This document shows positions 4,339 through 23,201 of a stretch of 24,548 bases of DNA, piece by piece. Made by a program: the position numbers and the translations under genes. Within the stretch, counting starts at the first letter, position 1. The number at the start of each line of letters is the position of its first letter. The stretch comes from a virus, in IMG/VR virus record IMGVR_UViG_3300034198_001600, positions 1-24,548 of that record; one strand, 5' to 3'. Under the pieces are notes generated by a model, which saw only the letters and a program-made list of their open reading frames with translations, ran no database searches and was not told where the DNA came from.

Positions 4339-4563
4339 TCATTGGTTTATAGTTGTTCCTGATGGACAATAATAACCTGTCCATTCAATCAATGGTAAGT
4401 CCTTTACCCAAATATAATCTACATTGGTGCAGAACTCCATTTCTTGAGTTGATATAATCCAATTAGCGTTAGCATCTTGCACGGGGTTAAAATAACTATC
4501 TGTTGTATATAGTTTACCTTCTACTGCTTCTTTCTCTATTACTGATAATAATCCTACTAACAT
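4339..4563 (-). CDS. Small conserved phage protein, paralogue of the 65-residue protein at 14307-14504
   Basis: A 74-residue protein with core YFNPVQDANANWIISTQE, then NVDYIWVKDLPLIEW. It is clearly paralogous to the 65-residue protein at 14307-14504: shared YFNPVQD, WIISTQE, TNVD, IWVKDLPLIE, and a 32-base identical DNA run (4383-4414 versus 14324-14355). It starts one base after the stop of the 788-residue modular protein, so translation is probably coupled. Each paralogue directly follows a large modular protein carrying domains D and C. This suggests a helper, chaperone or cap for those proteins, but no function is established. I do not recognise a named family, although similar short proteins occur near tail-fibre genes of Bacteroidota phages. 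Confidence 0.75.
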   Translation of the reverse strand: MLVGLLSVIEKEAVEGKLYTTDSYFNPVQDANANWIISTQEMEFCTNVDYIWVKDLPLIEWTGYYCPSGTTINQ

Positions 4564-4564
4564 T

Positions 4565-6931
4565 TTAATATGTGTTTCTTCCTAATGAAGTTTGATACGT
4601 GTTTATTATACTTGATAGATTAACTATTTCAGTATTTGTTAAACCTGAAGCCATCAATGCAAATGCATATCTGTTGGAGCTATAAAAATCTATAGTAGCA
4701 CCTCTCTGAGCTCCAATGACCAAGTTTCTATTACCATATTGAATAGCTTGGTTTGTAGTTTGAGTTGCAATACTTGATCCATTTCTATATAAAATTCTAT
4801 CTGTTGAACTCCTCACAGAACCTATTGTCATACCTGATGCCGATGCTTGTGATGTTGTTTCAACTCTAGCATTAGGATAATCACCAGAATCAAATAGAGT
4901 ATTATTACCAGATCCTGATGTTCTTTTTGCTGTGAGATTCCACATATCAGTCAATAATGTAGCATCTTGTGCGACACCCATATCGTAAATTCTATCTCCA
5001 ACTGTTCCTTGCAAATTGACATAAATACCTAAAGAAGAAGTATTACCATCTCCAATTCTTGTCAATGGATTAAAATTAGTATCTGCATATCCATTTGTTC
5101 CATTAGGTTGCATACCACTTGAATTGTGAGTCCATCCTCCATTGAATGCCAAAGTATTTCCAGATAATGGATTTTTAGCGTCCAAACAATGTGATCCAGC
5201 AACTCCACCCAAAACAGGATAGAAAGAATATATTTTATCCCATAAATTATTAGAGAATAAAGATGAGAACATTGTTATTGTTGCCGCTGATGCAGTTGCA
5301 TCAACTGTTCCACCTGATGTCACAACTGTATTGAGATACAACTGAGCTTGAGCAAGACCTTGCGGAGGAGTTGTAGATGGAGTTGGAGTCATCGTTGGAC
5401 TGGAAGTTACCGTTGCAGTATTAGTTGGTGTAGATGTTTGGGTTGGAGTATTTGTTGGAGTCGGAGTTTTAGTCGGACTAGCAGTATTTGTTGGTGTTTG
5501 AGTTGCAGTATTTGTTGGAGTCGGAGTTCTAGTCGGACTAGCAGTATTTGTTGGTGTTTGAGTTGCAGTATTTGTAGGAGTTTGGGTTGGAGTTTGTGTT
5601 GGAGTAGCAGTATTGGTTGCTGTCTGCGTAGGGGTTTGAGATGCAGTATTTGTTGGTGTTTGAGTTGGTGTTTGAGTTGGGGTGTTACTTGCTGTTTGAG
5701 TTGGCGTAGAAGTATTGGTTGCTGTCTGCGTAGGAGTTTGAGACGGAGTATTTGTTGGAGTTTGAGTATTTGTTGGAGTTTGAGTATTTGTTGGAGTTTG
5801 AGTTGGAGTTCTAGTTGGAGTTGGAGTAGGGCATACTACTGGATAAGTAATATATCCTCCTAAATTCATACCTGATCTTGGGAATTTAATTCCCCCAAAA
5901 TCAATTGAACTAGTTGTAGCAGCACTGAAATCAAATAAGTTGATAGCTGCTCCTACCCAAGTAGAACCTGATGACAAAATATTTACAGATTGTTCCATAC
6001 TATGCCATCCACGTGATTCTCCTGATAAATTGAAACGAACATAGACAGTATTTATATCACTAAAATCTTGATATTGAAATATGCTGTAATTATTTCCGTC
6101 AGGAGCTGTTCCTAATACAACATATCCTCCACTCAATGAGTTAGATAAAACATAACCAGATTGGAATGTTTGACCCGAAGCCAAATATTGTCTTTCATAA
6201 ACTCCATTATCAAACACAGGACTAAAAATAGCATCACTAACAGTGAATGATTCAGGACAAACTGCATTTGGAGTATTAGATGGGGTTGGAGTCGGAGTTT
6301 GCGTTTGTGTTGCAGTATTTGTTTGAGTTTGAGTTTGTGTTTGGGTAGGAGTTTGCGTTTGTGTTGCAGTATTTGTTTGAGTTGGAGTATTAGTTGGTGT
6401 TGAAGTATTAGTAGGAGTATTAGTTGGAGTGGTAGTTGGAGTTGCGGTTTGAGTAGGTGTTTGAGTAGGAGTTGGAGTTCTAGTTGTTGTTTGAGTAGGA
6501 GTCGCTGTTGGAGGATTTATCTCATCAGGAGCAAAAATAGTATTAGAATTTATTTCATCATTGGAAATAAACTCAAAATAATATTCATTTGTTGTATCCG
6601 CACTTACAACAATGAAGTCAGCAATACCATTTTCAACCAACTCGGTGGCTTGCAATGGATTCAGGTTACCTGAACCAAAGGGTTGGGCATACACATAATA
6701 ATTATATTGTCCTTCATAAGGGAATGGTATCTGACCCACACCTTGACCTTCAACAAATTCAAATTGATTATATCTCGTTGGATGCGGTGATACATCAGGC
6801 AAAATGAATTTAACCTCTTGTTTGGAGAATATATGAACAAATTGAAATAGATATTCAGGATCGCAAACAGTAGTGTTCTGTGTGAGCGTTACAACAATCT
6901 TATTTAATTGGTTGGATTTTAATAATATCAT
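4565..6931 (-). CDS. Modular virion surface protein with Thr/Pro linkers (anchor-linker-D-linker-C)
   Basis: A 788-residue protein. Residues 1-139 are an N-terminal domain (MILLKSNQLNKIVVTLTQN; later FPYEGQYNYYVYAQPFG) of a type common in Bacteroidota phage structural clusters, probably a virion-binding anchor. Residues 140-221 are a Thr/Pro/Gln/Asn linker. Residues 222-367 are domain D (VCPESFTVSDAIF to ITYPVVCP). Residues 368-523 are a second linker. Residues 524-788 are domain C (LYLNTVVTSGG; YPVLGGVAGSHCLDAKNP; FNGGWTHNSSG; NGTNGYADT). Domain C resembles LamG/concanavalin-like phage adhesin domains. D and C recur in the same order in the 1814-residue protein. The likely role is host-surface recognition or capsid/tail decoration. 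The start lies only 14 bases after a terminator-like hairpin. Confidence 0.8.
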   Translation of the reverse strand: MILLKSNQLNKIVVTLTQNTTVCDPEYLFQFVHIFSKQEVKFILPDVSPHPTRYNQFEFVEGQGVGQIPFPYEGQYNYYVYAQPFGSGNLNPLQATELVENGIADFIVVSADTTNEYYFEFISNDEINSNTIFAPDEINPPTATPTQTTTRTPTPTQTPTQTATPTTTPTNTPTNTSTPTNTPTQTNTATQTQTPTQTQTQTQTNTATQTQTPTPTPSNTPNAVCPESFTVSDAIFSPVFDNGVYERQYLASGQTFQSGYVLSNSLSGGYVVLGTAPDGNNYSIFQYQDFSDINTVYVRFNLSGESRGWHSMEQSVNILSSGSTWVGAAINLFDFSAATTSSIDFGGIKFPRSGMNLGGYITYPVVCPTPTPTRTPTQTPTNTQTPTNTQTPTNTPSQTPTQTATNTSTPTQTASNTPTQTPTQTPTNTASQTPTQTATNTATPTQTPTQTPTNTATQTPTNTASPTRTPTPTNTATQTPTNTASPTKTPTPTNTPTQTSTPTNTATVTSSPTMTPTPSTTPPQGLAQAQLYLNTVVTSGGTVDATASAATITMFSSLFSNNLWDKIYSFYPVLGGVAGSHCLDAKNPLSGNTLAFNGGWTHNSSGMQPNGTNGYADTNFNPLTRIGDGNTSSLGIYVNLQGTVGDRIYDMGVAQDATLLTDMWNLTAKRTSGSGNNTLFDSGDYPNARVETTSQASASGMTIGSVRSSTDRILYRNGSSIATQTTNQAIQYGNRNLVIGAQRGATIDFYSSNRYAFALMASGLTNTEIVNLSSIINTYQTSLGRNTY
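5364..5830 (-). repeat. Thr/Pro linker-coding repeat between domains D and C
   Basis: About 155 codons with 6- and 12-base periodicity encoding repeats of the type TPTQTPTNTATQTPT. The tract contains internal near-exact duplications, including a 60-base tandem repeat at 5461-5580. The peptide should be an extended, flexible-to-stiff spacer. The DNA should be prone to slippage and homologous recombination. Confidence 0.9.
5461..5580 (-). repeat. 60-base tandem duplication inside the linker
   Basis: 5461-5520 and 5521-5580 are adjacent 60-base copies differing at two positions. They encode the same 20-residue Thr/Pro unit (TPTNTATQTPTNTASPT type). The near identity marks a recent in-frame expansion, in contrast to the more diverged surrounding linker. 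Confidence 0.9.
6268..6514 (-). repeat. Thr/Pro linker-coding repeat between anchor and domain D
   Basis: About 82 codons encoding TPTQTPTQTNTATQTQT-type repeats. A segment of about 34 bases near 6295-6330 recurs nearly exactly at 6349-6384, showing internal duplication. Confidence 0.88.
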
Positions 6932-11125: not shown

Positions 11126-13474
11126 TTATATCAATGACCTTGATTTAATGGTTCTATCAAACTGTTGTTGGTTAGACATATCTTGTGCTGTCACATAAGT
11201 TTTGATAGGTCTATTGTTGGCAGTTTGAGCCATAACATCAACCAATGACTGATTACCTATTGACTGTGGTAAACCTATATTTGGCAAGTTTCCAACATCA
11301 TTCATTGCTGTCAACATTGGTGAGAACATCGATGCTGACTTTGCATTCATCACGAACTCTCCATTGGATAACATCGCTGGTATGGAATCAGTAATTGACC
11401 CTCCATCACCATAAACAAATCCACCTTGATTTCTTCTTGCAACCACTCCTGTTGGTGCTGCTGCGGTTGGTGCGGTTCCTGCTCCACCTTCTAATCCACC
11501 GACATCTACAGAAGTTTTTGAAGCTCTCGTAGCACTAATAATTGCACCAATGATACTGGCAGCTTGAACTGCATATAATGCTAACGGAATTATATTTTGT
11601 GGAAAACCAATTTTTGCGGTTTGTGCCGTGCCTTCAGCCACAGCGACTTGGGAACGAGCCAATGCACTTTTTGAGAATGCAATATTTTTCTTAACCTCCA
11701 ATACTAATTCTTTTGCCAATAGGATTTGTTTTGCAACCAAAGCTGCCCGACCAACAGCAGTTTCAGCACCAGCAAGTTGAATGATACCATCCAATGCCTG
11801 TGCCTTCATTGCAAATCTTTCTTGTTCGTAAGCCTGTTCGTCTTGTAGAAGTTTTAGATTATCTTGTTTTGTCTTTTCAGCATTTGCCGCTAATCTTTCG
11901 TTTTCCTTGAGTGTAGCATCAGTTCTTATTTTTTCTATTTCAGCTGCTTGTAGTGCTTCTAAAGTTTTGAACTCCTCATTGTTAGCTTTCGCCGCAGCAA
12001 TAAGTGCTTCATACTTTTGATTCACAATATCAATCTCAAGTTGTGCATCATCCATCAAGGTTTCAGTCCTTGATGTTTCTATTTTTCTGAGTTGATTTTG
12101 TAAATCTTGTTGTCTCTTTAATTCTTCAGCGGCATACTTATCCCTTAATTCTTTGAGTTTAGCATCTCGTAGTGCTAACAAACTACCATCATCCTCTATA
12201 CCAGCCTCTTTTAACTTTAGAAGTTTTGCCTGATAATCTGCTTCAATTGCAGCTTCTTCCTGTGCTCGTTTTGATTGCTGTTGTAATTTTGCATCATCAA
12301 GGATTTTTTGAGCCTCAAGTTCCTTAGCATTATTTTCTTTGGTGGTCTCCGCTTTTTTATCCGCTGCCTGTTTATCAATATCTTTGACTGCTAACTGATA
12401 ACCAGCCTGCTGTTCCTTTAATTTATTAAGTGTATCTTGTTGTGTAGTAACGACTGCTTGTGCTTCTTCTTCAACCGCTTCGGGGTCAAAAACAAATGAA
12501 GAAAGATAATCAAAGGTGTCTTCACGTAATGTGAGTGCTTCTTCTATTACCCCTAATTCTTTCAGGCCGACGCTGACTGCGTCTATTGTTGCTAAAATCC
12601 CTGTGATTGGAATACTTATGAATTGTAATAAACCAGATAAAATTGTTTGATTCCGTTTCGCGGCGTCAACTTGAGCCTTTTTAGTATCCTCAGCACTCTG
12701 TAACGCAACTTCTGCCGCAGTTATGGCTTGATTACTTTGTTGTATTTTGAGTTGGAGAATCTCCTTCTCTGTCTTACCTTGAAGTTTGAGTTGATTAGTT
12801 TGGCCATCTAAATCAGATAGTTTCTTTTGTTCAATTTCAAGATTTTTTTGGGTTAACTCATTTAACTTTTTTTGTTCACTAGATACCCCATTGACGAGAC
12901 CTACAATATCCTCCCAATAAGCAACAATAAGACCAACAGCAACGACAATAGCACCAATACCTGTCGCAACTAATGCTTTACTAAAACCCTTTACACTAAT
13001 GGTTGCCGTTTTTACACCATCACTGACAGCACCGAATCCCTCTTGAGTTGCTTGAACTGTTTTACCAAAAAGTGATGAAAGACCCGTAGCATCTGCTAAT
13101 GATTTTCCAATGTCCTTTACATCATTAAGAGTTTCCTTGAATTGAAATTTTAAGTCCTTGAAACTGAAACCTGAGAATTGTTTCAATAAAGCAATTGCTC
13201 CATTAAACTTACTTGCAATCTCACCAATGGGGCCTGGTATAAGTTGAAGGGATGTTAATAAGTCACCAGACCTTGTTTTGGTCTTTGCCATTTGGTCTTC
13301 AACATCCCCCAATTTGGTTGCTAATATCTCAAACTCTTCTTGAGAATATTTACCACTAGCAAGTTCAGCCTTTAATAGTCGAACCTGTTGGCTCAACTTC
13401 ATTGTTTCCTCACCAGCAATTTTTACTGACTTATCGTCTACATTGAATTTTATGTCAATTCTTTTTTGAGCCAT
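11126..13474 (-). CDS. Tail tape measure protein
   Basis: A 782-residue protein with tape measure architecture. An N-terminal helical region (MAQKRIDIKFNVDDKSVKIA) is followed by a hydrophobic segment at about 167-195 (LVATGIGAIVVAVGLIVAYW). A second hydrophobic stretch lies near 280-300 (LLQFISIPITGILATIDAVS). A long charged coiled coil rich in Lys/Glu/Gln/Ala spans about 330-580. A third hydrophobic segment follows (NIIPLALYAVQAASIIGAII). From about residue 683 comes the characteristic tape-measure end motif GGFVYGDGGSITDSIPAMLS followed by NGEFVMNAKSA. Tape measure length scales with tail length at roughly 0.15 nm per residue, so a tail of about 115-120 nm is expected. It is preceded by a tiny gene whose stop is one base before this ATG. 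Confidence 0.88.
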   Translation of the reverse strand: MAQKRIDIKFNVDDKSVKIAGEETMKLSQQVRLLKAELASGKYSQEEFEILATKLGDVEDQMAKTKTRSGDLLTSLQLIPGPIGEIASKFNGAIALLKQFSGFSFKDLKFQFKETLNDVKDIGKSLADATGLSSLFGKTVQATQEGFGAVSDGVKTATISVKGFSKALVATGIGAIVVAVGLIVAYWEDIVGLVNGVSSEQKKLNELTQKNLEIEQKKLSDLDGQTNQLKLQGKTEKEILQLKIQQSNQAITAAEVALQSAEDTKKAQVDAAKRNQTILSGLLQFISIPITGILATIDAVSVGLKELGVIEEALTLREDTFDYLSSFVFDPEAVEEEAQAVVTTQQDTLNKLKEQQAGYQLAVKDIDKQAADKKAETTKENNAKELEAQKILDDAKLQQQSKRAQEEAAIEADYQAKLLKLKEAGIEDDGSLLALRDAKLKELRDKYAAEELKRQQDLQNQLRKIETSRTETLMDDAQLEIDIVNQKYEALIAAAKANNEEFKTLEALQAAEIEKIRTDATLKENERLAANAEKTKQDNLKLLQDEQAYEQERFAMKAQALDGIIQLAGAETAVGRAALVAKQILLAKELVLEVKKNIAFSKSALARSQVAVAEGTAQTAKIGFPQNIIPLALYAVQAASIIGAIISATRASKTSVDVGGLEGGAGTAPTAAAPTGVVARRNQGGFVYGDGGSITDSIPAMLSNGEFVMNAKSASMFSPMLTAMNDVGNLPNIGLPQSIGNQSLVDVMAQTANNRPIKTYVTAQDMSNQQQFDRTIKSRSLI

Positions 13475-13619: not shown

Positions 13620-14276
13620 TTATAAAGGGTCACAAGATCCACCAACACAAATGAATATTCCTAATATTTCACCATTTGTATCAATTTGTGCTATTCTAAA
13701 TACACCTGTTGATGTATCGGTTGAAGTTGCAGCATATGCAACATATCCTGCTGTCCCACCTTGATTATATATTGTATCTCCAATTGTAAGTGCTGCATAA
13801 CTAGCATCTGCTGGTGTTTGAACATCTATTTGATAATTCGCATTACAGAAGTCAGAACAAGTTGCTCTAACCGTTCCGTGAGTATAAATTTGAGGTAATC
13901 CTGTTGGAGTTGGAGTTGCAGTCAATGTGCTTGTTGGTGTCGGTGATTGACCTGGAGTGCTAGTCGGTGTTTTAGTTGGTGTTGTAGTAGTAGTTGGAGT
14001 TGGGGTTATTCCTAATGTTGATGTTGGAGTTGGAGTTTGATTTGGAGTGCTTGTGTTAGTTGGGGTTTGAGTCGGTGTTGGTGTTACAACAGGACTATTA
14101 CAACTACCACTGATTGTTATACCATCACATATGATAATGGGAAGTTCGGCTTCCATACATACAGAATCACCAAAATTAAGATTATAAACATCTGTGGTTC
14201 CCAAACAGGTTGTTCCTGAAATGTATTTTGTCCCACTATCTAAAGGGTCATTATGTGTATATGTTAAACAACTCAT
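13620..14276 (-). CDS. Small modular surface protein (Cys-rich N-domain, Thr/Pro linker, domain B)
   Basis: A 218-residue protein. Residues 1-63 are a small Cys-containing N-terminal domain (MSCLTYTHNDPLDSGTKYIS; later VCMEAELPIIICDG). Residues 64-126 are a Thr/Pro/Gln/Asn linker. Residues 127-218 are domain B (QIYTHGTVRATCSDFCNANY, then LTIGDTIYNQGGTAGYVAYA, ending FICVGGSCDPL). Domain B matches the C-terminal domain of the 1814-residue protein along its whole length, at about 60% by eye. Domain B has a C-x3-C pair and a closing G-x-F-x-C. There is no recognised tail-attachment domain, so it may assemble through its N-domain onto another virion protein. A TATATTTATA element lies 3 bases before the start. 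Confidence 0.75.
   Translation of the reverse strand: MSCLTYTHNDPLDSGTKYISGTTCLGTTDVYNLNFGDSVCMEAELPIIICDGITISGSCNSPVVTPTPTQTPTNTSTPNQTPTPTSTLGITPTPTTTTTPTKTPTSTPGQSPTPTSTLTATPTPTGLPQIYTHGTVRATCSDFCNANYQIDVQTPADASYAALTIGDTIYNQGGTAGYVAYAATSTDTSTGVFRIAQIDTNGEILGIFICVGGSCDPL
13901..14088 (-). repeat. Thr/Pro linker-coding repeat in the 218-residue protein
   Basis: About 63 codons encoding TPTPTQTPTNTSTPNQTPT-type repeats joining the N-domain to domain B. It is of the same class as the linkers in three other genes of this window. Confidence 0.88.
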
Positions 14277-14279
14277 ACT

Positions 14280-14289
14280 TATAAATATA
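14280..14289 (-). promoter_or_regulatory. TATATTTATA element before the 218-residue gene
   Basis: An exact coding-strand 10-mer lies 3 bases before the ATG at 14276, preceded by an A-rich run. Like the copy before the portal gene, it follows one of the two paralogous small genes (65 and 74 residues). The two intergenic regions also share a TAAACCAAT(A/G)AT stretch. Confidence 0.45.
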
Positions 14290-14306
14290 TTTTTTTTATT
14301 ATTGGT

Positions 14307-14504
14307 TTAGGCTAAAGGAACATATTCAATCAATGGTAAGTCCTTTACCCAAATAACATCGACATTCGTGTTATTATCTATTTCTTGTGTTGATATAATC
14401 CAATCACCATTTCCATCTTGGACAGGATTGAAATACCAGTCGTGTTGGAGTTGAACACCAACCAACTGATCTTTTTGTTCTATTGTTAATAATCCTACTT
14501 TCAT
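14307..14504 (-). CDS. Small conserved phage protein, paralogue of the 74-residue protein at 4339-4563
   Basis: A 65-residue protein starting six bases after the stop of the 1814-residue modular protein. Its core (DWYFNPVQDGNGDWIISTQE, then IWVKDLPLIEYVPLA) matches the 74-residue protein at 4339-4563, including a 32-base identical DNA run. Both copies directly follow a large protein carrying domains D and C. Conserved acidic, Trp and Pro positions suggest a small folded protein-binding module. Function is unknown; an assembly partner for the adjacent modular protein is the simplest inference. Confidence 0.75.
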   Translation of the reverse strand: MKVGLLTIEQKDQLVGVQLQHDWYFNPVQDGNGDWIISTQEIDNNTNVDVIWVKDLPLIEYVPLA

Positions 14505-14510
14505 ATTTTT

Positions 14511-17500
14511 TTATATTGGAGAACAACTTCCACCGATACATTCGAATAGACCTGTTACGACACCACTTGTATTTATTTCTGCAATCTTGAATGGACCAGT
14601 CGTTGTATCTGTTGATACATTGGAGTATGCTACAAATCCTGCAACCCCACCCTGTCCATATATCGTATCACCGATAGTTAAAGATGTATAGTTTCCGTCT
14701 GCTGTGGTTAATGTTGTTATGTTATAATTTGTATTACAATAATTGCTACAAGTTCCCAATACTGTTCCGTGTGTATAAATTGTTGGTAATGGTGTCACAC
14801 TTGGAGTTGGTGTTTGAGTTCTTGTATTAGTTGGGGTATTAGTTGGTGTTGAATTTGGTGTTGATGCTGGTGTCGAAGATACACTCACAGTTGGTGTATT
14901 CGTAGGGGTTGAGGTTTGTGTTGGAGTTGGTGATGGACAAGCTCCGAATACTGACATTGAACCATCTGTTCCAACTTGGAATACCTCACCTCCTCCTACT
15001 GACTTAAACCATTTATTATTACCATTGAATTTATTTGCTATAGTAAATGTGGTGCTACTATATAGTGGTAATCCATAAGTTACAGCCGCTTGTTGGAATG
15101 AAGTTACACCAGCCTGTGGGACATATACGGTTTGAGTGTTACAGAAACCATTACAAGCATCCGTATCAGTATTCCATCCAATTCCACCTGTATCAACACA
15201 AAGTGTTAATGGTGTGAAGCTACTCGATGTTGAAGTTGGAGTTGTTGTATTAGTTGGGGTGTTGCTCGGAGTTGATGTATTTGTTGGTGTTGGGGTTGGT
15301 GAAACACTAGGATCAGTAATATTTCTACCTAATGTTGTGTTGAATGTTGTTATTGCATCTCTCAAACAACCCAATTCAGTTGTGGTTAAACCATCACCAA
15401 TGAATGCTGTTCCTAATCCCCTATTTGAATATCCACCAAAACCAGCCGCAAATAAAATAGCTAAGGACTGACCAGCACGGGCAACATCCGTATTTCTCGT
15501 CACTGTTTGAACTCCTCCACCTGCTCTCACAAATGAAACTTGCGAATTATTTGTTCTAGTTAAACCGAAGAAGTTTATTGCTTGAGAAGGGGTCGTTGCA
15601 GTTAAGTTTCCAAGTGTTGAGTTTTGAATAGACCCAATCGTATTATTCGATAATGAACCATTTAACGCTAACCAACCACCAGGATATTGTCTTCCTATTT
15701 CGTAGCCAGCTGTTCCTGAAACTGAAATAAAGAAACCAATAGTTGTGTTTGCTGACGTTGGTGTTTGTGCACTTTCAACCCAATATGTATCCGCAAAAGC
15801 ATTACTAGCATTACCTTGAATACCGAATGATTGATTATAAACCATACCACCTGCGAATGTCAATCTAAACGCTGCATTTGTATCAACAGGATTTTTAGCA
15901 TTCCATTTAGCAGATGCTGCAGTTCCACCTAAGAATGGATATAGAGCATCCAATTTATCATAAACACCACATGTTTTTAGATCTGCAAATAAGGTTTGTG
16001 TTGCTGCTGATACAGTTGAAGTTATACCAGTTCCACCTGCTTGAACTACGGCTTCAAGATATAGATTTGCATCGGTATTACCTGTGGACAATGTTGCTGT
16101 TGGTGTTGGTGTGCTAGTAGGTGTTACCGTTCTAGTCGGAGTTACACTTGCAGTAGCTGTATTTGTTGGGGTTACAGTTGGAGTTGCAGTATTTGTTGGT
16201 GTCACACTCGGTGTTTGAGTAGGACAAACAAAAGGATATGATACAGTTACCTGTGTCAAAGCTTGAATACCAGGATTTATGAATCTAACCCCGTTATAAT
16301 CGAAACCTTGATCGAATGTAACCGAAAATGCACCATTAGAAGTTGGTTCATATGCAACTTGTCCCAATGTTCCACCTGTCGTTCTAAATAAAGCCCAATC
16401 ACATCCCCCGAAATCACAAAGATTAGTCTTAATCAAAGTTGCATAAACATTCGGTTGAATCTCTTTATAGAATACACTATAAGAATATCCATCTCCACTG
16501 AATGCTCCTTCTACAAAATAAATTTCTGATCCTACAGATCTTCCCCATCCAACATTGAATGTTCCACCAGAGTAAGTTTCCAATCTATAGTATGTTCCAT
16601 TTGCATAAGTTGCGCCTGTAGTGAAACCTGTCAATACCAACTCATCTGTGCATATTGGAGTTGACGATGGTGTCGGAGTATGAGTAGGTGTTTGAGTTTG
16701 TGTTGCGGTATTGGTTGGGGTCTGTGTTGGAGTTTTAGTTTGAGTTATAGTATTAGTTGGTGTTTGGGTTGCCGTATTTGTTGGAGTATTTGTTGCGGTT
16801 TGAGTTGGTGTATTAGACGCAGTATTAGTAGGTGTCTGAGTTGCCGTATTGCTCGGAGTCTGAGTTATTGTCTGAGTAGGAGTTGATGTATTAGTAGGAG
16901 TTTGTGTTGGTGTGTTAGACGCAGTATTAGTAGGTGTCTGTGTTGCAGTATTAGTCACAGTATTAGTTGGCGTCTGTGTTACAGTCGGAGTTTGAGTTGC
17001 TGTCTGACTCGGAGTCTGTGTTTGTGTTGAAGTTTGGGTAGCAGTCATAGTCGGAGTTTGAGTAGGAGTGTTGCTCGCTGTCATACTCGGAGTAGCTGAG
17101 TTGCTTGGTGTCTGTGTTGGTGTAGATGTATTTGTTGGTGTTACTTGATTAGTTGGGGTTGGAGATGGTGTTGGTGGAGGTAATACCGCTTGACCATCCT
17201 GAACCACATTAAATGCAGTTAAACCTGAACATCCACAATCAGAATAAGCATTTACTTGATTAAAAGTATATCCTGAAGCGATATAATAATGTTGATAGTT
17301 ATTACTTGGATTATCATAGCCCTGAAGAACTTGATGACAACCTAAAGCATTCAAACTATCATCATATAAAGTTACATAGTTTCCTATGTAGGCATAAAGA
17401 TTAAAATTTAGATCAGAATTACAATATCTACTAGCCCCTCCCGCACAAGGAACTAACTCATAATATAATACTTTATGTTCATCATAGGTCTTTGTCAACT

Positions 17501-19955
17501 TAATGAGTTCTAAATCACAAATGGATGGTTCTAATAAATTGAAGTTCTCTATTTTATTAACTCTGAATATTGAGTTTTTTATTAGTATTTTTTCATCATA
17601 ACGAAGTTGTTTTACCTCATTAGGTGTAAGATATATTTTTACTTTGTATATTTTGTTTTCAGGACTAATAAGATCATCAATATAATCTTTGTAATAGATG
17701 TCATATAAGTCCTCTGCAATAAACTCAAATTCTCTTGGTTGAATAGTAGTTACGTCTTCACCTTTGAAGTTAATATAGTGAGAAAAACCACTATAATTGA
17801 ATGGATAAGTTGTAAATCTATTGATGTTGGTGAATGTTCGAAGTGTAAATTGTTCTGCAAACGATTGCATATAATACGGCACTTCATAAGTGAAAAATTG
17901 CGTGATACCGAAAACTCTTGTGAAACCATAATTCAAAGCAGGTAATGTCAATCCTCTGAATACAACACGTGGTAATATTTTGAATGGTTGGAATTGTTGT
18001 AAACTTGTCCCTTGACTATCGACATTCTTAATCTTAGAAAATGAAGATAAAGTCAGATAATTACTCTGCACGCTATTTATGGTGATATCAATAGGGGATG
18101 AGAAAATCAATGAAAAATTTATATTTGAGTTCTTATATGGTATATTCAGATTTATTTTATCTGTGCCGAATACTTTATTGGATGCACTCTTAAAATCTTG
18201 ATTAGCATAATCTTGGTCAAGTTGAAAGTTAAAATCTAAAGTTCCATTGATAAGAGAGGTCGTTGGTGCTACTGATTGCAATTGGTTGTAATCAACTTTT
18301 GTCGTCCAATCTAATAACTCACCCTTACCAAAATATTCAACTATTGGTTCAATAATTAAATTGCTTGGTTTATCAGGATTTGGAACAACTACTAAGTTAA
18401 AATATCTATTGACTGAAGTTATAAAATCTATCTGTTTATAATCATTATCAGGAAATTCTAAAGCATAATCAAATGTTTGACCTGATAAAAGAAATCTTGG
18501 TGCATCAAAAATCTGAAACTTGAAATCTGATATTTCAACATTATTACCTTCAAAATAAAATTGTATTTGATAATTGATTTTTGGAGTTGAGAATGGGCCA
18601 CGAACGAAAGAAAATCTAGCTATAGATTCTACTTGTGAACTTTGAAATTGAGAGGTGCAATTCTCATCGAATCTCACAGCAAAAGGCCCTTCATAAAATG
18701 TTTGACCAGGAAAATCATCTTGTTGATAACTTATAAGACCATATAAAGCTGCTCCTGAAGTTGAGCTTGACGTTACAGTCCCATTACCACTTTGAACACT
18801 AAGAAATGTCCCTTGATAAGTATATGGAATACCAATTTCTGAAGATGGAATTGTTACTACAAATTCTTGAAGTGTATTATCAACATAACTAAAAGTCATA
18901 TTACCTGGTCCTGTGTTTACTATGGTAAACTCACAAATTCCGTTTGATTGTATTGTATAATTGAACTGAAAATCGTATACTCCTTGATAAAGATCTGGTA
19001 TTGCTAAATTTGTAGTATTAGCAGACAAATTAAGATTATTACAAGTTATTCCTGAACTCGGATTGGTGGATGCTGAAGTTGAACCACTAAATAAAAAGTT
19101 TTCATTTATGTAAGTATAACAAGGAATTAAAGCGTTTCTTGAATATGGGGTTTCATCCAAGAACTTTAATGGCATATAAAATCTTTCAAAGTAAGATGTA
19201 TCAAAAAAGTCAGATTGTATTTCATAACCCGCATCTTTAATAATACTTGAGTATAATTCTTTAATCTGAATTGTTGGTTTGTAGTAATAATCTCTAACAG
19301 GGAAATTAAAATTATCAAAATGACCTTCTGAAGGGTCATAAGCACCATCAACCAAATCTGAAAATTCCACCAAAGGGGTTGCAACATAATCAACAAATGG
19401 GGTATTACCAGTATAATCATAACCGATATTATAAAGCCCCCACATCGTCTTACCATTCTGATATGAATAGTTTGTCGCACCAGTTAATGGGAATAAGTTA
19501 TAATCAACATTAGATTGTAATATAACTTCTGATGTGAATGGATGTGATAAATGAGATAAGTCAGTTTGACGTAAGAATTTGTCCCCTATGTTTGCAGCTA
19601 AATTTCCAACCTGATTATAGAACGTAACTTGATAAGTAAAATCTTCATCTTGAATCGTAACCCCATCCAAACGAATATTTCCAACTAGTATCTCATAACC
19701 ATCCCAAGATATAATTGCATCAAATTTATCATTCGGGTCAAAATCCAAAGGTGTTGAGTTTATATCATAAAAATAGTTGAATATTTCATTATTGTTCTTC
19801 GTTCCTGGCAATGTGAATGCCTTTGAATAACTTGAGTTCTTTGATGTGATATCTTGTATTTCCCCAACGGAGAATGACATCAAAATATCTTCATCATCAA
19901 ATAAATCCAAGTATTTGTGAACACCTGATATTACAGTCCTGATTCGTAAACTCAT
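14511..19955 (-). CDS. Giant modular tail protein: baseplate/hub-like N-terminus plus linker-joined surface domains
   Basis: An 1814-residue protein. Residues 1 to about 835 resemble baseplate-hub or tail-tip proteins of Bacteroidota phages (FSVGEIQDITSKNSSYSKAF, then TLPGTKNN; later WDGYEILVGNIRLDGV). Residues 836-927 are a Cys-rich domain (YELVPCAGGASRYCNSDLNF; CGCSGL). Modules separated by Thr/Pro linkers then follow: linker 928-1099; domain D 1100-1243; linker to about 1289; domain C about 1290-1548 (LYPFLGGTAASAKWNAKNP); linker to about 1577; domain A to about 1673 (TSFQQAAVTYGLPLYSS); linker to about 1722; domain B to 1814. D and C recur in the 788-residue protein, A in the 334-residue protein, and B in the 218-residue protein. 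The start overlaps the previous stop as TAATG. The role is probably a tail tip with several receptor-binding domains; the hub assignment is by pattern. Confidence 0.8.
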   Translation of the reverse strand: MSLRIRTVISGVHKYLDLFDDEDILMSFSVGEIQDITSKNSSYSKAFTLPGTKNNNEIFNYFYDINSTPLDFDPNDKFDAIISWDGYEILVGNIRLDGVTIQDEDFTYQVTFYNQVGNLAANIGDKFLRQTDLSHLSHPFTSEVILQSNVDYNLFPLTGATNYSYQNGKTMWGLYNIGYDYTGNTPFVDYVATPLVEFSDLVDGAYDPSEGHFDNFNFPVRDYYYKPTIQIKELYSSIIKDAGYEIQSDFFDTSYFERFYMPLKFLDETPYSRNALIPCYTYINENFLFSGSTSASTNPSSGITCNNLNLSANTTNLAIPDLYQGVYDFQFNYTIQSNGICEFTIVNTGPGNMTFSYVDNTLQEFVVTIPSSEIGIPYTYQGTFLSVQSGNGTVTSSSTSGAALYGLISYQQDDFPGQTFYEGPFAVRFDENCTSQFQSSQVESIARFSFVRGPFSTPKINYQIQFYFEGNNVEISDFKFQIFDAPRFLLSGQTFDYALEFPDNDYKQIDFITSVNRYFNLVVVPNPDKPSNLIIEPIVEYFGKGELLDWTTKVDYNQLQSVAPTTSLINGTLDFNFQLDQDYANQDFKSASNKVFGTDKINLNIPYKNSNINFSLIFSSPIDITINSVQSNYLTLSSFSKIKNVDSQGTSLQQFQPFKILPRVVFRGLTLPALNYGFTRVFGITQFFTYEVPYYMQSFAEQFTLRTFTNINRFTTYPFNYSGFSHYINFKGEDVTTIQPREFEFIAEDLYDIYYKDYIDDLISPENKIYKVKIYLTPNEVKQLRYDEKILIKNSIFRVNKIENFNLLEPSICDLELIKLTKTYDEHKVLYYELVPCAGGASRYCNSDLNFNLYAYIGNYVTLYDDSLNALGCHQVLQGYDNPSNNYQHYYIASGYTFNQVNAYSDCGCSGLTAFNVVQDGQAVLPPPTPSPTPTNQVTPTNTSTPTQTPSNSATPSMTASNTPTQTPTMTATQTSTQTQTPSQTATQTPTVTQTPTNTVTNTATQTPTNTASNTPTQTPTNTSTPTQTITQTPSNTATQTPTNTASNTPTQTATNTPTNTATQTPTNTITQTKTPTQTPTNTATQTQTPTHTPTPSSTPICTDELVLTGFTTGATYANGTYYRLETYSGGTFNVGWGRSVGSEIYFVEGAFSGDGYSYSVFYKEIQPNVYATLIKTNLCDFGGCDWALFRTTGGTLGQVAYEPTSNGAFSVTFDQGFDYNGVRFINPGIQALTQVTVSYPFVCPTQTPSVTPTNTATPTVTPTNTATASVTPTRTVTPTSTPTPTATLSTGNTDANLYLEAVVQAGGTGITSTVSAATQTLFADLKTCGVYDKLDALYPFLGGTAASAKWNAKNPVDTNAAFRLTFAGGMVYNQSFGIQGNASNAFADTYWVESAQTPTSANTTIGFFISVSGTAGYEIGRQYPGGWLALNGSLSNNTIGSIQNSTLGNLTATTPSQAINFFGLTRTNNSQVSFVRAGGGVQTVTRNTDVARAGQSLAILFAAGFGGYSNRGLGTAFIGDGLTTTELGCLRDAITTFNTTLGRNITDPSVSPTPTPTNTSTPSNTPTNTTTPTSTSSSFTPLTLCVDTGGIGWNTDTDACNGFCNTQTVYVPQAGVTSFQQAAVTYGLPLYSSTTFTIANKFNGNNKWFKSVGGGEVFQVGTDGSMSVFGACPSPTPTQTSTPTNTPTVSVSSTPASTPNSTPTNTPTNTRTQTPTPSVTPLPTIYTHGTVLGTCSNYCNTNYNITTLTTADGNYTSLTIGDTIYGQGGVAGFVAYSNVSTDTTTGPFKIAEINTSGVVTGLFECIGGSCSPI
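14791..14935 (-). repeat. Thr/Pro linker between domains A and B
   Basis: About 49 codons of Thr/Pro/Ser/Asn repeats (TPTNTPTNTRTQTPTPS type) joining the last two modules of the 1814-residue protein. Confidence 0.85.
15225..15308 (-). repeat. Short Thr/Pro linker between domains C and A
   Basis: About 28 codons encoding SPTPTPTNTSTPSNTPTN-type sequence. It is the shortest linker in this protein. Confidence 0.8.
16091..16222 (-). repeat. Thr/Pro linker between domains D and C
   Basis: About 44 codons of TPSVTPTNTATPTVTPTNT type. It occupies the same position between D and C as the 5364-5830 linker of the 788-residue protein but is much shorter, so linker length varies between the paralogous regions. 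Confidence 0.85.
16656..17178 (-). repeat. Long Thr/Pro linker before domain D
   Basis: About 174 codons of TQTPTNTASNTPTQTPTNT type, the longest linker in the window. Internal near-duplicates are visible, for example around 16810-16850 and 16910-16950, which share a GTATTAGTAGGTGTCTG core. The tract implies repeated expansion. Confidence 0.88.
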
Positions 19956-21631
19956 TAGTAAGGTAAGTTATATTGTCTATAAGGGGTTAATTTCAATTCA
20001 AGTTCATATTGGAATACTCTGTCGTATTTCTGTTGATATTTCTTCACCTCTTTATTCAACACTTGAACTGGTAATAAATATGGATATATCAATGACTGAT
20101 TATCTTGTGGTGTCCAATCATCTTTAATAACATATACAGTTGGGGACATAATCAATTCTTCAATTATATCCACGTCATTCTGTTTTACAAAGTTTGATGC
20201 TACTGTCATAAATTCTGCTGCATCCCCATAATAAACTGTTTCAGATGAATCATAACTTTGCATATTCCATACCGTTGAATTTAATGTCTTCTGTGATCCA
20301 TATATCTTCTTTTGTGGGGTCTTAGCATATTGAGATTTCTTTGTGAAGGTGAATGTATCCCATACTCCATTTCTATTGATAAACAAGAAGTTTACAGGAT
20401 CATTGAAACACTCAGGTTCCATCATCTTGTATTGAACAATTTCAGATACACCAGCAGAATAGTTGGTATCACAAGATCCACTTGACAAGAAGATCGCTAC
20501 ATCACTATTTGGTCTTACATTAGGGTTTTGTTTCCAATTGACATATGCAATTCTTTGACCCAAGAATGAGTTATAATTTGTGGGGTTTTGAGTGTATGAA
20601 ATAGGTTGTGAATAAACCACATCATAGTTAAGTTGAGCATTTGGCCCATTCTTTTGTAAGATACTCACAGATTCAATTACTGATGAGTTATCATACAATG
20701 GGTTCTCACCATACATAAATCCTAATACAATAGGACAAGTATAATAATGAGATCTATATCTTGTTTGAATTGGTTGTCCATTTAGGATGGTCATTGGTTT
20801 TGTTTCCTCACCAAATGTTCCCATAAACTTACCATTTATGTTGAATGGAATAACCCCACTATTCATAGCGAAGTCATATACCTTTGTATTCCAAAAGTTA
20901 TATTGACCATTTAGATTGACACCAGAATAATAATAATTTAGATATGGATTGTCCGATACCCCATATCTTTTATTGTCTTGAACACCAGGCCATACCATCA
21001 CACCATAAGGTTGGGTTGCAGCACTAAGAGGATTTATTGTTTGTCCTGTGAACCCTGAATAAACCCCGTAGTTTGACGAATCTATTATGATGGTAGTTGT
21101 CCCTCCACTTGCATACTGAACCCCAAAAATCAAACGATATTCGTTGATATGATAGATGTTCTCAAACCCATTATAACCACCATTGAAACCATTAGAATAA
21201 CTTATGAAATTTATAGGTAAATTATTGATTGTTGCTTGTGATGTTTCTTTGTCCACATTCACCAATGATGAATTTGTTACAGATACAGCATAGGGGTCAG
21301 ATTCTGCAAAACCAGTATCAGTGTCATAAATCATCGACATATTTCGAGGATTTGGTTTTACAATATTTCTGATAATCGTTTCAACATTGAAGATACAATT
21401 TCCAAACTCATTGGATGGGATAAGTAGTCGAGCTATTTTACCTGATTCTTGTGTTGAACCAGTTGTGTTATTAGGACCCATATCATTTTGATAGGGGTTC
21501 TTATAGATGTCCACAACCAAACGAATATCGGTGTAAGCAGAATAACTATTTAATGCCACATTCCAAGTGTGGTCAGAATGTGTTTCTGTTACCGATAGGG
21601 GTTGTTGTAATATTGTTAAATTGAAGCTCAT
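19955..21631 (-). CDS. Virion structural protein of unknown role (558 residues)
   Basis: A 558-residue protein, Asn/Tyr/Ser-rich with mostly beta character. Recognisable segments are the N-terminus (MSFNLTILQQPLSVTETHSD), an early strand pair (AYTDIRLVVDIYKNPYQND), a conserved-looking IPSNEFGNCIFNVETIIRN, and a C-terminal section (LLPVQVLNKEVKKYQQKYDR, then FQYELELKLTPYRQYNLPY). I recognise the general type from structural clusters of uncultured Bacteroidota phages but no named family. It lies between the neck protein and the giant hub-like protein, with 1-base spacing or overlap on each side (stop TAA overlaps the next ATG as TAATG). It therefore probably belongs to the same tail or baseplate complex, perhaps a distal tail component. 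There are no Thr/Pro linkers. Confidence 0.7.
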   Translation of the reverse strand: MSFNLTILQQPLSVTETHSDHTWNVALNSYSAYTDIRLVVDIYKNPYQNDMGPNNTTGSTQESGKIARLLIPSNEFGNCIFNVETIIRNIVKPNPRNMSMIYDTDTGFAESDPYAVSVTNSSLVNVDKETSQATINNLPINFISYSNGFNGGYNGFENIYHINEYRLIFGVQYASGGTTTIIIDSSNYGVYSGFTGQTINPLSAATQPYGVMVWPGVQDNKRYGVSDNPYLNYYYSGVNLNGQYNFWNTKVYDFAMNSGVIPFNINGKFMGTFGEETKPMTILNGQPIQTRYRSHYYTCPIVLGFMYGENPLYDNSSVIESVSILQKNGPNAQLNYDVVYSQPISYTQNPTNYNSFLGQRIAYVNWKQNPNVRPNSDVAIFLSSGSCDTNYSAGVSEIVQYKMMEPECFNDPVNFLFINRNGVWDTFTFTKKSQYAKTPQKKIYGSQKTLNSTVWNMQSYDSSETVYYGDAAEFMTVASNFVKQNDVDIIEELIMSPTVYVIKDDWTPQDNQSLIYPYLLPVQVLNKEVKKYQQKYDRVFQYELELKLTPYRQYNLPY

Positions 21632-21632
21632 T

Positions 21633-22190
21633 TTATTTTGATGGTATTTCTCTATTTAATGTTCTGATAATGAAGTTTTCCACGTCGTCTCCAACTGCAT
21701 TATATAATCTTTCAAAATCATCTCTAAATTCTGGTGGAGGATTCATTAAAACATCTTCCAATGAATCATAGGCTTTATCATAAATGTTGGTTCTTCTAAT
21801 ACCAAACTTATGTATGTTCTTTTGTATTGCGAATGCTAAACTCAACTGACTACCTTTTACGAATCGTCCTTTCTTATCACGTCTTCGTATTCCCCTAATT
21901 TTTATCCAATCCAATAATGCTTTGATTGGAACAAACTTACCACCTTTTTTACGACCAAGATTAACATACTTGAAATAGTCCATATATTCTATTTCCAACA
22001 TAAGTCCATCTTGTGTTTCAATGACCTTTGTCTTTATACTATTCAATAACTTACCAGACGCAACTTTGTTGGATAGACCCCTAACTGAAGGGTTCCCAAA
22101 TGGATATATTTTTGCCTTTATTTTTTGTCTATAAAAAGCGGCAAACATATCACCTAATTGTTGAAGTTGTTGTTCTGTTAAATCATACAT
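21633..22190 (-). CDS. HK97 gp10-like neck / tail-completion protein
   Basis: A 185-residue protein, basic in its middle. The pattern fits the HK97 gp10-like family: an N-terminal helix (QQLGDMFAAFYRQKIKAK), a SGKLLNSIKTKVIE strand-helix unit, the hallmark GGKFVPIKALLDWIKIRGI, a basic loop (RRRDKKGRFVKGS), then LAFAIQKNIHKFGIRRTNIY, and a C-terminal helix (FERLYNAVGDDVENFIIRTL). Proteins of this family sit in the neck between connector and tail terminator. The next gene upstream is the tail-completion-like protein (six bases apart), which agrees. Confidence 0.75.
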   Translation of the reverse strand: MYDLTEQQLQQLGDMFAAFYRQKIKAKIYPFGNPSVRGLSNKVASGKLLNSIKTKVIETQDGLMLEIEYMDYFKYVNLGRKKGGKFVPIKALLDWIKIRGIRRRDKKGRFVKGSQLSLAFAIQKNIHKFGIRRTNIYDKAYDSLEDVLMNPPPEFRDDFERLYNAVGDDVENFIIRTLNREIPSK

Positions 22191-22196
22191 AGGTTA

Positions 22197-23201
22197 TCAG
22201 GTTGGACAGGTTCCAAATAATGACATTGCTCCGTCATTATCAACTTGGAATATTTCAGATTTATCGGTTGAACCATACCATTGAGAATTACCATCATATA
22301 AGTTTGCTGGTATGAAAACAGGTGATGTATAGATCGGTAACCCATAAGTTATTGCAGCTTGTTGGAAGGTTGTTATCCCTGTCTGTGAAATGTAAACTGT
22401 GACAGGGGTGCAAGTTCCAGAACAAATATCATTTGTTGAATTGAAACCATTTACCCCGTTGCTAGTGCATAAACTTATTGTGGAATATGTCAATGGGGTC
22501 GTTGGAGTAGGAGTACTAGTTGATGTTGGGGTTGGACTAGATCCTGTTGTAGCAGTTGGACTTTGAGTAGGGGTTTGTGTTTGAGTAGGTGTTCCCGTAT
22601 TAGTTGGAGTTTGTGTTTGAGTAGGTGTCTGTGTATTAGTCGGGGTATTTGTTTGAGTAGGTGTTGGTGAAACACAAGGATCAGCGGGGAAGTCATCAAA
22701 TGCTGCCACACATCTATCCAAGTAAGTTTTGGTTTTGATTCTAATGGTTGCTGAATATCCACACAATAAGTCCTCATATTCTTCAATGAATGGAACCATT
22801 GTTACAGCATCATCCAAATAATAATATTCGTTATAGTTTCCGAGTTGTTCTGTAACAGATAATCTGAACATAGATATAACATCATTCATTATCTGCAATG
22901 TATCAGACAATATGTCAGTCATATTATCCATATCACGTTTCATAATATCAGATACGATCAAGTTGAACTCAAATGTCATAAACCCAAACTCTTGGATTAC
23001 ATTAGCGGGAACAACATAAAGATATGGATAGTAAGGTGATTGATCGCTTGGGTTAACGACTTTATCCCTTCTATCTACTTGATAAGTGAACTCATCCAAA
23101 TCACCAAATCCGAATGAGTTTATTTGTTTGTGTCTATTAGCCAATAACTGAAAGTCATCGACTATATTTTTTAGATTGAGAGCATTTACTGTTTTTGTCA
23201 T
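22197..23201 (-). CDS. Tail-completion-like protein fused to a linker and surface domain A
   Basis: A 334-residue protein. Residues 1-176 resemble tail terminator/completion proteins of Bacteroidota phages (INSFGFGDLDEFTYQVDRRD; YPYLYVVPANVIQEFG; FEFNLIVSDIMKRDMDNMTD; then FIEEYEDLLCGYSATIRIKT). Residues 177-236 are a Thr/Pro/Gln/Asn linker. Residues 237-334 are domain A (DICSGTCTPVTVYISQTGIT, then FQQAAITYGLPIYTSPVF, then EIFQVDNDGAMSLFGTCP). Domain A also occurs in the 1814-residue protein. The start overlaps the -1 frame stop of the chaperone gene as ATGA. The fusion predicts a ring near the top of the tail carrying outward-pointing domains, like neck or collar fibres. The anchor assignment is by pattern and neighbours; the domain A homology is seen directly. 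Confidence 0.75.
   Translation of the reverse strand: MTKTVNALNLKNIVDDFQLLANRHKQINSFGFGDLDEFTYQVDRRDKVVNPSDQSPYYPYLYVVPANVIQEFGFMTFEFNLIVSDIMKRDMDNMTDILSDTLQIMNDVISMFRLSVTEQLGNYNEYYYLDDAVTMVPFIEEYEDLLCGYSATIRIKTKTYLDRCVAAFDDFPADPCVSPTPTQTNTPTNTQTPTQTQTPTNTGTPTQTQTPTQSPTATTGSSPTPTSTSTPTPTTPLTYSTISLCTSNGVNGFNSTNDICSGTCTPVTVYISQTGITTFQQAAITYGLPIYTSPVFIPANLYDGNSQWYGSTDKSEIFQVDNDGAMSLFGTCPT
22495..22672 (-). repeat. Thr/Pro linker-coding repeat in the tail-completion-like protein
   Basis: About 59 codons of SPTPTQTNTPTNTQTPTQT type. The core units repeat with 6-base periodicity and join the anchor to domain A. Confidence 0.88.

Follow-up and report, generated by a model that had tools for sequence, protein, structure and literature searches.

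Exchangeable modules on Thr/Pro linkers in several virion-region genes of a tailed phage: a likely socket-and-module display system

We analysed the virus record IMGVR_UViG_3300034198_001600 from IMG/VR over its whole length of 24,548 bases, referred to below as the window. It holds structural genes of a tailed phage, each of them encoded on the - strand. Four of these genes encode proteins of 334, 1814, 218 and 788 residues in which an N-terminal anchor is followed by a threonine/proline-rich (Thr/Pro) linker and by one or more globular modules of four families, A to D. These genes were located as an earlier note on this DNA had described them; its range of 13620-23201 fits three of them and omits the 788-residue gene at 4565-6931, which it also describes. 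The linkers are 31 to 180 residues long, consist of Thr, Pro, Gln and Asn, and border every module in the four genes, in agreement with that note. The genes and their parts are given below, with linkers assigned from the sequence.

22197-23201, - strand: 334-residue gene, anchor followed by A
22674-23201, - strand: 334 anchor, predicted tail-terminator-like domain (neck end of the tail), from an AlphaFold2 (AF2) model and PDB and BFVD matches
22494-22673, - strand: Thr/Pro linker of the 334-residue protein
22200-22493, - strand: module A on the terminator anchor, 48% identical to the copy in the 1814-residue protein, within the clade of A on 334 anchors
14511-19955, - strand: 1814-residue gene, anchor followed by D, C, A and B, carrying all four families
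17193-19955, - strand: 1814 anchor (921 residues), large tail-region protein with 67 related loci, homologous to gp45 of Nonlabens phage P12024S (E = 2e-36)
16653-17192, - strand: Thr/Pro linker between 1814 anchor and D (180 residues)
16224-16652, - strand: module D in the 1814-residue protein, same profile family as the copy in the 788-residue protein
16092-16223, - strand: Thr/Pro linker between D and C
15312-16091, - strand: module C in the 1814-residue protein, 33% identical to C in the 788-residue protein, predicted to be concanavalin A (ConA)/LamG-like by homology to that modelled copy
15219-15311, - strand: Thr/Pro linker between C and A
14940-15218, - strand: module A in the 1814-residue protein, aligned with the 334 copy
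14790-14939, - strand: Thr/Pro linker between A and B
14514-14789, - strand: module B, end of the 1814-residue protein, 62% identical to the 218 copy
14307-14504, - strand: 65-residue gene, putative small partner of C, 61% identical to the 74-residue gene and tied to C in relatives
13620-14276, - strand: 218-residue gene, anchor followed by B
14097-14276, - strand: 218 anchor, short (60 residues), about 70% identical in relatives bearing other modules
13893-14087, - strand: Thr/Pro linker of the 218-residue protein
13623-13892, - strand: module B on the 218 anchor, aligned with the 1814 copy
4565-6931, - strand: 788-residue gene, anchor followed by D and C
6521-6931, - strand: 788 anchor (137 residues), between a 175-residue gene and the portal gene, 87-96% identical in relatives bearing other modules
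6269-6520, - strand: Thr/Pro linker between 788 anchor and D
5828-6268, - strand: module D in the 788-residue protein, sister to D on the 218 anchor in the related locus L031
5360-5827, - strand: Thr/Pro linker between D and C
4568-5359, - strand: module C in the 788-residue protein, predicted ConA/LamG-like jelly roll (AF2 model and Foldseek)
4339-4563, - strand: 74-residue gene, putative small partner of C, paralog of the 65-residue gene
1-1371, - strand: probable fifth display gene with its own N-terminus and delta-60 repeats (TIGR02608; likeness to m2 modules), cut by the contig end

After removal of the linkers, the two members of every family aligned far above residue-shuffled control sequences. 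Identical positions numbered 44 of 92 in the A pair (48%, z = 39), 57 of 92 in the B pair (62%, z = 43), 87 of 248 in the C pair (33% by BLASTP, z = 27) and 35 of 137 in the D pair (23% by BLASTP, z = 7). The D pair was the weakest of the four but is independently supported, as the two copies fall into a single profile family in relatives. No anchor pair and no cross-family module pair among the four window genes reached z > 4. The four families and the differing anchors claimed earlier were thus confirmed, while the statement that each family occurs twice has to be read, on these alignments, as two divergent lineages of a family and not as two copies.

Viral contigs were scanned six times, with modules A, B and C and with the 1814, 334 and 788 anchors, giving 196 loci, and about 100 virus fragments, many of them partial, were compared. 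Profiles were built for the four anchors and the four modules, and the leftover linker-bounded segments were clustered. A few of the 51 clusters in total were anchors, tape-measure ends or antisense artefacts, and about 45 further recurring families were obtained (designated m1, m2 and so on). A deep kinship of A and B was not supported by profile comparison, and the likeness of B to m34 and of A to m30 and m34 was weak.

Across these relatives the same anchors bore other modules or none. The 334 anchor (83-93% identical) was followed by A, m5-A, C or nothing, and the 788 anchor (87-96% identical) by D-C, C, m1 or x-C. On the 218 anchor we found B, m1-B, m33-m10, m10 or m2-B, and on the 1814 anchor D-C-A-B, m23-A-B, C-B, C, D-m10, m2-m2, m3-B or m3-m10. 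Flanking structural genes in these relatives were mostly 80-98% identical to those of the window, while the modules differed. Module C occurred on at least seven classes of anchor, m1 on seven and D on four. Because the linker search picks linker-bearing proteins, a separate count started from the anchors by themselves. Of the complete proteins, 19 of 54 with the terminator anchor and 19 of 52 with the 788 anchor stop at the anchor, so modules are optional. The earlier note had proposed interchangeable modules on several virion anchors, and this held: the modules on a given anchor are clearly not constant in relatives. By gene comparison, several virion-region proteins end in a Thr/Pro linker bearing at least one globular module, and modules are optional, replaced by unrelated ones and moved between anchors.

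Exchange could be followed most closely between near-identical contigs. IMG/VR 3300032213_000932 (213_932) and 3300032299_000339 (299_339) share 92-95% DNA identity. The terminator gene of 213_932 (L095, 6251-6835) is a 194-residue stub ending in a bare Thr/Pro linker, an empty socket, while that of 299_339 carries C and differs by one insertion of ~795 bp that starts within the linker and ends at the stop codon. In the 788 gene, 91% identity between 213_932 and 3300044641_003556 (641_3556) ends within the linker, and 96% identity resumes 13 bp ahead of the portal start; between these breakpoints one contig holds C with its small gene and the other holds m1. Homology between close phages was found to break within the linker on one side and, on the other, at the stop codon or in the intergenic gap just before the next gene.

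Several modules could be traced from one anchor to another. The m10 module and the end of its linker occur in the 218 gene of 213_932 and in the 1814 gene of 641_3556 with 86% DNA identity, and the m10 protein on the 218 anchor of 213_932 is 94% identical to that on the 1814 anchor of the more distant L065. Likewise, C on the 1814 anchor of 213_932 is 78% identical to C on the 334 anchor of L068 and at most 38% identical to C on other 1814 anchors. A tree of C, built by a quick search, contained 21 anchor changes over 42 labelled rows, where shuffling gave a mean of 25.5 (range 19-29), and by this measure hardly follows the anchor. The two C copies of the window fall in separate clades and most likely arrived independently. 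Each is about as close, or closer, to a C on a different anchor in another phage than to its partner, and the nearest relatives of C in the 1814-residue protein sit on 1814, 788 and 334 anchors of other phages.

Module C also brings a small putative partner gene directly downstream, a feature absent from the earlier note, which likewise missed the delta-60-repeat gene. In the window these are the 65- and 74-residue genes after the 1814- and 788-residue genes, 61% identical to each other. Among the distinct C-module open reading frames in relatives, 66 of 92 had a small gene directly downstream, nearly always within 20 nucleotides, while 10 of 92 reach the contig end and 16 of 92 are without one. 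Conversely, 52 of 53 distinct small genes stood directly after a C-module reading frame, on any anchor and including cases where C is not the final module. Divergence in the small protein runs parallel to divergence in C (Mantel r = 0.59, P = 0.0005); on 788 anchors the value was 0.80 with C versus 0.44 with the anchor. In comparisons with chaperone profiles the 65- and 74-residue genes had no Pfam match and reached PHROG 8731 at E = 0.13 only. On the simplest reading, their product would be a C-specific assembly factor or subunit that moves with C. We also observed a lone small gene of this kind without a preceding C-module reading frame (L121, 19805-20017), just upstream of a 788-type anchor gene. 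Small genes unlike the partner of C were found directly after m1-bearing 788 genes (L106, 11430-11666; L104, 11478-11759), and m1 may have partner genes of its own.

The repetitive linkers and the optional modules could both be products of neutral mosaicism, in which low-complexity linkers are prone to recombination and the modules are carried along without function. We regard this as highly improbable. The modules stay open reading frames whose cores are conserved over large divergence (13 invariant columns in 48 sequences of C), C retains its partner gene, and up to half a gene is retained for display.

The AF2 model of the 334 anchor, built from 39 sequences, folds like a tail terminator at moderate model confidence. 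All PDB matches at E<=0.001 were terminators or neck proteins, the best being lambda gpU (prob 1.00; query template modelling score, TMq, 0.40-0.46), T5 p142 and A-1(L) gp7-terminator. The gene position fits terminators, adjoining tail-completion genes upstream of the tape measure, and the order in P12024S is alike, with homologs. BFVD matches included P12024S gp41, a 138-residue homolog without any module, one relative whose annotation includes a ConA-like lectin domain, and others bearing collagen repeats. A neck site, suggested earlier among others, is supported by this model for the 334 anchor; for the 1814 anchor, a tail-tip place was not supported. In divergent relatives including L075, L085, L053 and L076, a terminator-type anchor was observed tandem-duplicated in one open reading frame, each copy being about 46-59% identical to the single copy of the window.

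The AF2 model of module C, built from 48 sequences, had a predicted local distance difference test score (pLDDT) of 94.3 and a predicted template modelling score (pTM) of 0.92, and in this model C is a ConA/LamG-like jelly roll (beta-sandwich). Foldseek matched it at E about 1e-7 to AbnA domain 4 and to other ConA-like jelly-roll binding domains, at 10-17% identity. Its likeness to clostridial neurotoxin binding domains reflects the common jelly-roll fold at 10-16% identity, with no kinship and no toxin suggested. Sequence searches gave no Pfam match for C at E<=1, LamG and lectin profiles included, no PDB sequence match, and no significant PDB match with profiles of C or of the 334 and 788 anchors. 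Modules A to D found nothing above chance in Pfam, NCBIfam and PHROG, save PHROGs 17104 and 18498 (unnamed) for C. Two other matches were rejected: PHROG 15511 matched window proteins mainly in the linker, and the match of the 1814-residue protein to 8zvk was mostly to Thr/Pro linker of low complexity. Binding, which the earlier note ascribed to these domains, may be inferred from fold only, and carbohydrate binding likewise from the lectin-like fold predicted for C.

A lectin-like fold in C, together with mosaic swaps in near-identical genomes typical of receptor-binding proteins (PMC10684548), could also mean that the modules are the main receptor-binding domains and that swaps change the bacteria infected. 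We find this doubtful. The modules are optional on each anchor and sometimes missing, and long linkers on a neck-like protein fit a role in accessory tethering better than that of one primary receptor binder.

The gene at 1-1371 matched TIGR02608 delta-60 repeats in six stretches (E = 7e-52, 173 bits versus a cut-off of 76.5) and shares 38-46% identity with m2 modules. Since m2, the delta-60 family, is found in relatives on the 1814, 218 and 788 anchors, we take this as a probable fifth display gene.

The presence of all four families twice in this genome raises the possibility of redundant display, in which the same specificity is deliberately placed at several virion sites and paired modules bind the same ligand. 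Repeats of a family within a genome numbered 11 where 7.0 were expected (P = 0.02; eight genomes after collapsing, uncorrected for phylogeny). In P12024S, too, the 1814-type anchor gp45, homologous to the 1814 anchor, shows a weak match to BACON close to its C-terminus, scoring 18 bits where the cut-off is 25. However, identity within the pairs is 23-62%, the B, A and m10 pairs are no closer inside a genome than across genomes, and in the majority of divergent relatives the anchors bear different families. The surplus of repeated families is itself modest. Concerted evolution of paired modules was likewise not seen in the within- versus between-genome comparison. The claim that the phage displays the same binding modules at several sites was therefore not upheld for these divergent lineages; we think deliberate redundancy unlikely.

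We consider it likely that this tailed phage carries a socket-and-module surface display system. The linker would act as a spacer, flexible or rod-like, through which any module fits any anchor, and the modules would be adhesins tethering the virion to glycans on the host surface or in its vicinity. Module C would most likely be a carbohydrate-binding jelly roll, with the small partner as its assembly factor or subunit. Swapping may proceed through common low-complexity linker DNA and exchange among co-infecting phages, and the variety of modules could be maintained by diversifying selection on adsorption.

Several observations weigh against this interpretation. All relatives are metagenomic contigs; the same arrangements nevertheless recur in several samples, identical ones being observed across samples in 641_3556, L103 and L105 and also in 050_516 (IMG/VR 3300032050_000516) and 448_1963 (3300008448_001963), which argues against assembly errors. 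A further contig handle is 805_309 (3300005805_000309). The adhesin role and the virion display are deduced from predicted folds and gene context. The model of the 334 anchor is moderately confident (pLDDT 74.7, TM about 0.45 to gpU), and on some anchors the first module is joined without a linker (m2 on 218, m3 on 1814). Module A stays with its anchor, with one clade on 334 and one on 1814, so not every module family moves freely. Finally, linker DNA is A/C-rich on the coding strand, and the DNA words common to linkers of different window genes (11-19 nucleotides) are no longer than after synonymous codon shuffling. The likeness of linkers inside this genome thus needs no recent DNA exchange, and recent exchange between them was rejected. 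Recombination in the linkers, as proposed earlier, agrees with the breakpoints inside linkers between close phages and left no recent sign within this genome.

The system is a variant of known promiscuous virion decorations, of the immunoglobulin (Ig)-like and carbohydrate-binding module (CBM) kinds. Ig-like domains on phage virions (Fraser et al. 2006, cited in PMC10385173) and Hoc of T4 and relatives (PMC10385173) are optional variable domains on a conserved virion-binding anchor, exchanged among phages and virion proteins, and are thought to help weak attachment. The genes studied here share optional domains on several virion proteins that are swapped between phages. They differ in that C is predicted to be a ConA/LamG-like jelly roll and A, B and D match no Pfam family (no Ig match among them), and in the long Thr/Pro linkers, a common pool used by several anchors of one genome and a partner gene for C. 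Evolved Dit, Tal and major tail proteins of lactic-acid-bacteria phages also reuse one carbohydrate-binding fold on several tail proteins, with CBMs in Dit/Tal loops or on tail-tube proteins (PMC7291167); here linkers attach the modules at the C-terminus of terminator-like and other anchors, in kin of a flavobacterial siphophage.

Mosaic receptor-binding and neck-passage proteins resemble the present genes in their conserved N-terminus and non-homologous C-terminal domains in near-identical genomes, neck proteins included (PMC10684548), whereas here modules also cross between anchor genes through one linker type. A tail fibre and its cognate chaperone in distant Alteromonas phages form a mobile host-recognition cassette with a small partner gene (PMC10579305). 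The 65- and 74-residue genes similarly stand directly downstream of C, their putative client, and co-vary with it, but no known chaperone profile recognises this family, and the module that it follows is lectin-like. In gut Bacteroidota phages, BACON/PKD adhesins combine binding domains near structural genes (PMC13370021); the domain families here are others, on Thr/Pro linkers, with nothing suggesting an epithelial role.

Phage receptor-binding and decoration proteins are well known to swap domains, which is usually seen for single proteins. In the present case several anchors of one genome share a linker type, modules can be traced between anchors, genomes 92-95% identical show an empty socket and the precise insertion of one module, and one module has an identifiable partner gene. 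This linker-based system was not described in the literature searched (open-access full text only), which is weak evidence of novelty. We judge the chances evenly balanced that a Bacteroidota-type siphophage group turned at least four unrelated virion proteins, the tail terminator among them, into interchangeable sockets of one linker type, served by a pool of dozens of module families, some of which travel with a dedicated small assembly partner. The ligands of accessory virion domains, the role of virion position and the mode of module exchange become accessible to test, and the separable modules of predicted lectin-like fold provide candidate glycan-binding domains.

The structural genes of the window run, on the - strand, in the order terminase (Terminase_3C), a 247-residue gene, the 334-residue gene, genes of 185 and 558 residues, the 1814-, 65- and 218-residue genes, tape measure, an XkdF-type protease, a 309-residue gene, the probable major capsid protein, a 175-residue gene, the 788- and 74-residue genes, portal and the delta-60-repeat protein at the contig end. 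The gene after the 309-residue gene is probably the major capsid protein, with a weak PHROG match. By portal, the closest annotated isolate is P12024S (26.5% identity). The host of the window phage is likely flavobacterial, because P12024S infects Persicivirga and its homologs of window genes stand in matching order. Module C had one weak match in bacterial genomes (31%, on a Terrimicrobiaceae metagenome-assembled contig), which does not identify the host. The tape measure protein (11126-13474) is highly variable among relatives, with 38-71% identity over partial coverage, while neighbouring genes are mostly 80-98% identical.

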